A DNA stretch of 64,000 nt from Bdellovibrio sp. ZAP7 (lineage in GTDB: Bacteria > Bdellovibrionota > FAC87 > UBA2466), in assembly GCA_945878405.1 (NCBI GenBank), contig CAMCTJ010000004.1, positions 1-64,000 of the forward strand. Direction: 5' to 3'. Positions 52,008 to 53,427 of the stretch are shown here, piece by piece (position 1 is the first letter of the stretch; the number at the start of each line of letters is the position of its first letter). The position numbers and the translations under genes were made by a program. Under the pieces are notes generated by a model. That model worked only from the letters and a program-made list of their open reading frames with translations, was not told the origin of the DNA and made no database searches.

Positions 52008-52260
52008 TTCATTAGTTTAACTTTTTTGAGTTTGCCGGTTTGCGATGAACTTTTTTGCAGTTGCCAACGGTGTATTCATCAAGTTTTGAGGTTCTATTTT
52101 GGTCCTTGCTTGCAACACGGCAAGGTGTTGGAATTACAATTATTTTTAGGGATCAGTTCTGAACCCAAAATGAGACCAGTTTTGTGATTGAATTAAAATC
52201 TTTCCGGTTCTGAAACCCTTGAAATCACGCCCAAAATAACGCTTTGCACATTAAATAACT

Positions 52261-52276
52261 TGGCACGCTAGTTGCT
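52261..52276 (+). promoter_or_regulatory. Sigma-54 (RpoN) promoter
   Basis: TGGCACGCTAGTTGCT matches the sigma-54 consensus TGGCACGRNNNTTGCW at all but one position, with correct GG-GC spacing. Predicted start is near 52287, ahead of the leader and pilG. It is the only such match I noticed in the window. It would need an NtrC-class activator such as the one encoded at 24.4 kb. Confidence 0.85.
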
Positions 52277-52306
52277 CTCAGACTCAGTAACTTCTGAGAT
52301 GGAAAA

Positions 52307-52339
52307 CAAATTTTACTCAGGAGAGTTAGTAAAAATTTG
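52307..52339 (+). promoter_or_regulatory. Leader hairpin 1
   Basis: CAAATTTTACT pairs with AGTAAAAATTTG (11 bp with one bulged base, 10-base loop CAGGAGAGTT) about 20 bases after the expected sigma-54 transcript start. The GGAG in the loop resembles a ribosome site with no start codon behind it. Confidence 0.6.
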
Positions 52340-52429
52340 AGAGAGGGTTCCGGGATCAAGGGTCTTTCACTCCATTCATCCCCCCCAAACCTGTTGCTGA
52401 AGGCTTGAGATTTCGGCTAACCCTCTCTC
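52339..52429 (+). ncRNA. Leader hairpin 2: long stem, possible sRNA or regulatory 5' UTR
   Basis: A perfect 11-bp pairing GAGAGAGGGTT (52339..52349) with AACCCTCTCTC (52419..52429) is extended inward by CCGGGATC with GATTTCGG (two G-U pairs). The loop is about 45 bases and includes a run of six C. No U-run follows, so it is not a standard terminator. Either a structured leader of pilG or a processed small RNA; inferred from base pairing only. Confidence 0.5.
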
Positions 52430-52476
52430 TAAACAAAACTCTACTTTTAGATAATTCCCCGATAAAATTATTCCCT

Positions 52477-53427
52477 ATGACGAAGAGAATCACACCCGTA
52501 CTTGTGATGTTGGGATTTTTCTGTCTTCTGGGTAGTAAAGTTCTTTTTCAAAATCAGCTTCAAAAGATAGATGCTCTTAAAGGCCCCGATACCGATGAGT
52601 TCAAAGTTAGCTATCGGGGAGATTCCCTGAAAAAACTTTCTTTTGGCTATGATAATTTTTTATCGAGTCTTTTATGGATACGCCTGCTTCAAGAAGCTAA
52701 ATATACCCCGATAAAAGGTAATTCTGTAAGTTGGGAATACTCGGAAGTAGAGGCGGTCACCACTTTAGATCCTAATTTTGACTCAGCTTATAATTTTGGT
52801 TCCCTTTATGTTTCTTTTTTTAGAAGAGATAAGCTTGGGGGAAAGAAGCTTCTTGAAAAATGGGTTAACCATTCACCGACTTTTTGGAAACCCCATCATA
52901 TGCTTGGCATGCATTACTTTTTGGAACTTGGTGACTACGCCCATGCCGCTCCTCACATCCTCAGAGCCTCTCAATTACCAGGCGCCCCTCCTTACATTGC
53001 CTCTTTGGGGGTCGGGTTACTAGGCCAATCTGGCGCAAGCCTCTTTGTACTTCAATCGGCTTGTGAACTTTTTGAAGCCGCCACGGGACGCGAGGCACGA
53101 GTGCGATTAGCGAGAAGAGTAAGGGGTCTTCGTTGGCATTTAGAAAAACAAAGTTGGGAAACTGCCTTAGCGAAATTCAAAAAGACAAATAACGGATCGC
53201 TTCCCCACTCGCTGGCCGAACTGAATCCTTTTTTGAAAACGGAACCAAGTCGAGACATTAGTTCGGTCATTCCTCATCTTGGTAAATCCGAGGCCTTACA
53301 AATTCTTTTCTCTGAAAAGTTTCAATTTAATCTGAGTAAAGATCGGAAAACCATCGAAGCCATGAAACCAGACCAAGCTAAGGAATTTGAAAACATTGGC
53401 GTTCACCTACAAAAGGAATCACCATGA
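52477..53427 (+). CDS. pilG: PilG-like TPR protein of the pilGHI complex
   Basis: About 316 residues from ATG 52477 (an upstream TTG would lie in the leader hairpin). N-terminal anchor helix (VLVMLGFFCLLGSKVLF), then helical repeats (YDNFLSSLLWIRLLQEAKYT, DSAYNFGSLYVSF, HHMLGMHYFLELGDYAHAAPHILRASQLPGAPPY). Placed as PilG by order: it precedes an ABC ATPase, an ABC permease and prepilin peptidase, as pilG-H-I-D do in Myxococcus, where they are needed for pilus assembly or export. Symbol by synteny, moderately sure. Confidence 0.7.
   Translation: MTKRITPVLVMLGFFCLLGSKVLFQNQLQKIDALKGPDTDEFKVSYRGDSLKKLSFGYDNFLSSLLWIRLLQEAKYTPIKGNSVSWEYSEVEAVTTLDPNFDSAYNFGSLYVSFFRRDKLGGKKLLEKWVNHSPTFWKPHHMLGMHYFLELGDYAHAAPHILRASQLPGAPPYIASLGVGLLGQSGASLFVLQSACELFEAATGREARVRLARRVRGLRWHLEKQSWETALAKFKKTNNGSLPHSLAELNPFLKTEPSRDISSVIPHLGKSEALQILFSEKFQFNLSKDRKTIEAMKPDQAKEFENIGVHLQKESP

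Follow-up and report, generated by a model that had tools for sequence, protein, structure and literature searches.

6C RNAs are defined by two stem-loops, each of which carries a run of cytosines in its loop. In the 6C RNA/B11 of mycobacteria and other actinobacteria the stem-loops present at least six cytosines, and the C-rich loop of B11 pairs with G-tracks beside ribosome binding sites (PMC12395582). sX13 of Xanthomonas is reported to carry loops of 4C/5C and to repress, independently of Hfq, mRNAs with a GGGG motif, among them that of pilH (PMC3771888). The most conserved part of GsrN from Caulobacter is a C-rich loop, which base-pairs with the G-rich leader of an mRNA (PMC5869019). Pxr of the myxobacteria is described as an intergenic sRNA with several stem-loops, an apparent sigma-54 promoter and paralogues (PMC5568312). 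From the related predator Bdellovibrio bacteriovorus, merRNA and the AP sRNAs are known as intergenic RNAs (PMC3627812).

The RNA analysed here lies in an intergenic region of a stretch of 64,000 nucleotides from Bdellovibrio sp. ZAP7 (contig CAMCTJ010000004.1, assembly GCA_945878405.1), here called the window. An earlier note on this DNA had proposed a possible new sRNA or riboregulator at this place, and the proposal is supported by compensatory changes in relatives and by the absence of a corresponding family in Rfam. As a type of regulator, the RNA resembles the known C-loop sRNAs in its predicted features. Its presentation of at least six cytosines is shared with 6C RNA and B11, from which it differs in an extra invariant AAAACCUGUUGC and in its predicted sigma-54 control. 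Unlike B11, whose active loop is located in an intrinsic terminator, it has one C-loop and no terminator, and unlike the two C-loops of 6C RNA its C-run occurs in the main hairpin only, the 5′ loop being ATGGAAAAC...; with cmscan, the 6C family of Rfam gave no match at the gathering score or at E values up to 10. The RNA can be likened by description to sX13, which is also highly structured with a C-rich loop and whose reported Hfq independence fits the lack of an Hfq match here, but sX13 has three loops of 4-5 C and no sigma-54 link is mentioned in the part of the report cited (PMC3771888). Furthermore, pilG and pilH of Xanthomonas are response regulators, whereas the genes adjoining the present RNA encode an ABC transporter. 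With GsrN, likened again by description, it has a conserved C-rich loop and control by an alternative sigma factor in common (PMC5869019); GsrN in turn is under sigma-EcfG, has its C-loop at the 5′ side and is confined to the Caulobacteraceae by sequence search, whereas the present RNA has a sigma-54 promoter. Pxr, judged from its description, is similar in its intergenic position, multiple stem-loops, apparent sigma-54 promoter and paralogues, and differs in having three stem-loops in about 108 nt and a position downstream of nla19, with no C-rich loop reported in the sections consulted (PMC5568312). merRNA and the AP sRNAs share the intergenic location, but merRNA holds a c-di-GMP riboswitch and three of the AP sRNAs have sigma-28 (FliA) promoters. 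Sigma-54 control, the extra invariant segment, the synteny with pilus genes and the set of siblings are the unusual points of this RNA.

Gene neighbourhood of the RNA

The region 52299-52429 of the window is flanked on one side by a divergent pair of genes on the minus strand, encoding an M17 aminopeptidase and a 174-aa protein, and on the other side by an operon on the plus strand. The first gene of this operon (52477-53427, plus strand), a neighbour that lies outside the RNA, encodes a pilG-like protein of 316 aa and is followed by genes for an ABC ATPase, an ABC-2 permease and a prepilin peptidase. Judged by this gene order, the operon resembles pilG-H-I-D of Myxococcus. By protein search a pilG-like orthologue was found in 14/14 genomes of the family, and the pilG-H-I-D-like gene order is kept wherever the contig extends far enough. 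The position of the RNA is constant in 15 orthologues, with the M17 peptidase/174-aa pair on one flank and the pilG-pilH-pilI-pilD-like operon on the other, and it lies upstream of pilG on the same strand in 15/15 genomes. A search of genome contigs for related loci with the pilG-like protein as query returned nothing, while a DNA pattern for the core did give matches; those in named records came from MAGs assigned to Bdellovibrionales or 'Deltaproteobacteria', of which several originate from lakes and groundwater.

Sigma-54 promoter and 5′ hairpin

Upstream of the hairpins a -24/-12 promoter sequence, TTGGCACGctagTTGCT, is present on the plus strand at 52260-52276 (also given as TGGCACGCTAGTTGCT, 52261-52276), and the RNA is predicted to start at about 52286-52287. 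The sigma-54 start assumed in the earlier note was confirmed at the sequence level. The genome contains 22 such sites in comparison to 3 for the reversed control as well as one rpoN gene. The promoter is kept at a suitable distance in the relatives: in each of the 15 orthologues it precedes the main stem by 49-108 nt, with two sites deviating from the consensus (TGGCCC in G002 and GTGC in G287). By eye, several of the sigma-54 sites in the genome are followed by genes for exported proteins, and a FliM-like gene also has one upstream.

Given the predicted start, the RNA would open with a 5′ hairpin (52291-52323, plus strand). Its arms CTTCTGAG (52291-52298) and CTCAGGAG (52316-52323) enclose the loop ATGGAAAACAAATTTTA with a GGA motif. 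Across the three genomes of the genus its pairing is complete (100%), and 3 of the pairs are compensatory. In genus g7 a hairpin with an unrelated stem sequence and a GG(A) loop is found at the same place; in other genera the 5′ hairpin is not clear in all cases. Two details of the earlier description had to be given up in this part of the RNA. The 5′ boundary at 52299 falls in the loop of the conserved 5′ hairpin, and the 11-bp AT-rich first stem is broken without compensation in both congeneric genomes, with 70% of cells paired and covariation at the level of shuffles.

Structure and covariation of the main hairpin

The main stem-loop (52337-52431, plus strand) is a conserved structured RNA. 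Its outer stem consists of the left arm GAGAGAGGGTT (52339-52349) and the right arm AACCCTCTCTC (52419-52429), whose perfect 11-bp pairing had been recognised before and is prolonged by inner pairs up to the loop that holds the C-run noted earlier (C7, 52380-52386). The sequence scored 39.6 bits with covariance model R1 and 70.7 bits with R2, a model that includes this sequence.

The decisive support for this hairpin is comparative, whereas its folding energy is only modestly unusual (z = -1.9; 7/200 shuffles fold equally well). For the comparison a covariance-model alignment of 15 sequences was used, which replaces MAFFT alignments in which the right arm was misplaced. The search for compensatory changes that had been suggested as a check gave a clear outcome over the 15 orthologues: double changes were found at 22/27 pairs and 93% of cells were paired, exact figures that are biased upward because the alignment is fitted to the structure, and 0/500 shuffles matched these values. 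When the pairing partners were shifted by one column, paired cells fell to 54-57%. The outer helix is 98.9% paired, RNAalifold was in agreement, and by eye the outer stems differ in sequence among orthologues while their complementarity is kept.

Distribution of the RNA

A covariance model built from 7 sequences (R1) was run against 369 genomes of the phylum and matched all 14 genomes of the family, spread over 7 genera, as well as G287 from a sister family, with a single copy in each. With the second model, built from 15 sequences, true matches scored 52-103 bits and the background at most 26 bits. Outside its order the RNA was not found in the 369 genomes by the covariance models; weak matches in G303, G200 and G071 sit within coding regions, and those in G311/G313 turned out to be a different C-loop hairpin. 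When the 14 family genomes were searched at the DNA level, long matches were confined to the same genus and most other genera gave a match of about 24-33 nt over the C-rich loop with 85-92% identity. Inspection of the upstream regions revealed this loop together with a long hairpin ahead of every pilG-like orthologue. The shape of the RNA and the sequence of its loop are retained across one order.

The search of Rfam yielded no family at the gathering score and nothing meaningful at E values up to 10, which rules out a known RNA family. Neither a known aptamer, in view of the missing Rfam match, nor an expression platform of a metabolite riboswitch was found. In sequence and structure this is a family new to Rfam and, as far as found, confined to one order.

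The conserved C-rich loop

The terminal loop CTCCATTCATCCCCCCCAAACCTGTTGC (52370-52397, plus strand), closed by CUUUCA/UGAAGG, is conserved and is the proposed interaction site. In the 15 sequences the loop of about 28 nt is nearly invariant and has the layout UUCCAUUC-C6-10-AAA(A)-CCUGUUGC. Almost invariant in 15 genomes are C6, the AAACC stretch and CTGTTGC; the essentially invariant parts are six or more C, A3-4 (one AAT), CCTGTTGC and GA. A C-run of at least 4-6 nt exposed in a hairpin loop is present in 15/15 orthologues, ranging from C6 to C10. This near-invariance of the loop is found while the neighbouring 316-aa protein is only 35-42% identical between genera. Since the length of the C-run varies from 6 to 10 and not in multiples of three, the loop is non-coding, and a small coding ORF was ruled out by these changes out of frame.

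That there is no functional RNA at all, and that the signal comes from an inverted repeat in the DNA, from a terminator or from a small gene that codes for protein, appears very improbable. Palindromes and C-runs can have other origins, and C-rich loops occur also in some terminators elsewhere in the phylum. The compensatory changes at 22/27 pairs around an asymmetric invariant loop speak against this, as do the sigma-54 promoter that is always upstream, the missing U-tract, the C-run lengths that break the reading frame and the occurrence of just one copy, at one locus. It was also considered whether terminators of this genome generally have C-rich loops, and none was seen in the window's 8 terminator-like hairpins.

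Possible partners of the loop were searched in the genomes. With CAACAGGTTTNGGGG and one mismatch allowed, the 14 genomes returned the gene itself and scattered single sites, and no conserved extended complement of the loop; a single conserved extended antisense target was for this reason dropped. No conserved G-tract was found at the starts of neighbouring genes. Kissing of the 5′ loop with the C-loop of the same RNA was rejected as well, the two being complementary by eye in G009 and not across genera.

A simple C-run seed would require neither the length nor the degree of conservation of this loop, and a protein ligand would for that reason be equally possible. The RNA might then serve as a sponge or scaffold for a C-specific KH or cold-shock protein, or for CsrA through the GGA of the 5′ loop. 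We regard this as improbable. It would fit a long and nearly invariant loop of which the siblings share only the C-run, and 5′ loops with GGA recur in genera g1 and g7; the motif is however not universal (GGU in G009, unclear in G002 and G287), and the characterised C-loop sRNAs act via base pairing.

The region between the hairpin and pilG

In the window the main hairpin is followed by TAAACAAAACTC. A U-run directly 3′ of the hairpin is absent in all 15 orthologues. Due to the lack of a U-tract after the right arm no intrinsic terminator is evident, the hairpin itself was ruled out as an intrinsic terminator, and the transcript could continue into pilG. The stretch between the hairpin and the start codon comprises 44-127 nt and is C-rich and G-poor in most genomes. 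No conserved expression platform, such as a terminator or a sequestered Shine-Dalgarno sequence, was found between the hairpin and pilG. Most orthologues have a TAnAAT-like element ahead of the start codon, in the window as a putative -10 element TAAAAT (52463-52468, plus strand); it suggests a separate promoter for pilG, with a weak -35 region and a promoter score that is no better than that of shuffles in most genomes. If TAAAAT is a real -10 element, the pilG-like mRNA would be near-leaderless and without a Shine-Dalgarno sequence (window 52463-52477).

These observations bear on the question whether the RNA is a cis-acting 5′ leader of the pilG-H-I-D-like operon, that is, whether a sigma-54 transcript runs into pilG and its loop is bound by a protein or ligand. 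We consider this rather unlikely, albeit with several points in its favour: the RNA is single copy and always upstream of pilG on the same strand (15/15), no terminator separates the hairpin from pilG, and the invariant loop looks like a binding site for a ligand or protein. Against a leader stand the variable spacing to the start codon without a conserved platform, terminator or visible Shine-Dalgarno sequence to sequester, the possible separate -10 element, and a sibling hairpin in the same genome that has no downstream gene on its strand.

Sibling RNAs with C-rich loops

That sibling (class B) is located behind a sigma-54 site without a following ORF (G000 C3:117346, L080; feature span 117346-117500, L080 1501-1650 and L140). 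Its hairpin, TTGAGAGAGGCGGGTTG-loop with C6-CAACCTGTCTCTCTCAA, has a 17-bp stem and is flanked by a 64-aa ORF, which has a sigma-54 site of its own, and by a convergent gene (GNAT-like by eye), and hence class B is not the leader of a downstream gene. In the orthologues of G006 and G007 17/17 stem positions are paired, with compensatory base differences and a near-identical loop over the three species. A pattern in which CCCCCC follows a sigma-54 promoter at a distance of 86-146 nt matched 13/14 family genomes, compared to 1 match for the reversed pattern, and 14/15 genomes of the order (G287 counted) in contrast to 54/354 elsewhere in the phylum. Some matches lie inside ORFs and the others belong to classes A (the main RNA), B, C and D. 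Class C is a sigma-54 RNA of genus g7 whose end hairpin resembles an intrinsic terminator, having a C6 loop and then a U-run (L146, L152, L159). Class D consists of UUUGCCUCGUCCCUACCCCCCAAUGCUCUUGAGAAAGAGC followed by another hairpin and is found in genera g3, g4 and g7, with a version in the sister-family genome G287 (L135, L136, L141, L143, L145, L156, L164, L165, L167). The siblings have only the C-run in common. The position of class B, together with the two further classes in the order, would be the strongest support for a free-standing RNA.

In the distant family f22 a sequence-distinct hairpin (class E) with the loop UUCCUCCCCCC(n)AAUCCC is situated between ppx/gppA-like and MATE-like genes, names that refer to G311, in which the flanks were tested. 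This hairpin, CAGAUGAUCUGGGA...UCCCAG.UCAUCUG, has a C-rich loop with a variable number of C and was located at L101-L109 in G305, G307, G309, G311, G312, G313 and G315, with copies at two contig ends in G307. Other families of the Bdellovibrionota (L169, L175, L179, L180, L181) have hairpins with C-rich loops and terminator-like structures behind sigma-54-like sites. These structures may reflect a wider tendency or chance.

Proposed mode of action

Taken together, we lean towards a trans-acting sRNA that is activated by sigma-54, works without Hfq and pairs through its C-rich loop with G-rich sites of mRNAs. Such a pairing sRNA is favoured because the stem needs only to pair, the C-rich loop is invariant, the promoter belongs to an alternative sigma factor, siblings are free-standing and no Hfq was found (PF17209 gave no match in the genome, which is 96% complete). 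By analogy, binding of the C-rich loop to G-rich sites, as put forward in the earlier note, appears to be the best-supported mechanism, and in its mode of action the RNA is likened to 6C/B11, sX13 and GsrN with membership in none of them established. An enhancer-binding protein would activate sigma-54 and so bring about synthesis of an RNA of about 145-155 nt (roughly 52287-52435), as part of a regulon that would also comprise exported proteins and the FliM-like gene; its function would be distinct from that of the adjacent pilus operon. The working part would be the loop of about 28 nt, and the stem of the long hairpin would need only to pair. The exposed C-run would pair, without Hfq, with G-rich stretches near the ribosome binding sites of targets, whose translation would be blocked or altered. 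Transcription, the 3′ end, the pairing with G-rich mRNAs and the identity of the targets are what we infer. The RNA would belong to a small group of sigma-54 RNAs, siblings within the order, all of which present a C6 run.

A more tentative extension is that sigma-54 drives in this order a set of RNAs (classes A-D), mostly without evident common ancestry, that share a single-stranded C6. The C-run might serve these bacteria, which apparently have no Hfq, as a common recognition code, read by G-rich ribosome binding sites of a surface/motility regulon or by a dedicated C-binding protein.

The present analysis adds a covariation-supported RNA family that is absent from Rfam, in uncultured Bdellovibrionota, a lineage for which next to nothing is known about post-transcriptional control. 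The structural alignment can be used as an Rfam seed, and the invariant loop together with the siblings makes the pairing idea directly testable. Moreover, the RNA connects C-loop sRNAs with sigma-54 and with the gene neighbourhoods of type IV pili, and if the proposed mechanism is true, the same C-loop/G-tract strategy would have arisen in bacteria without detectable Hfq.
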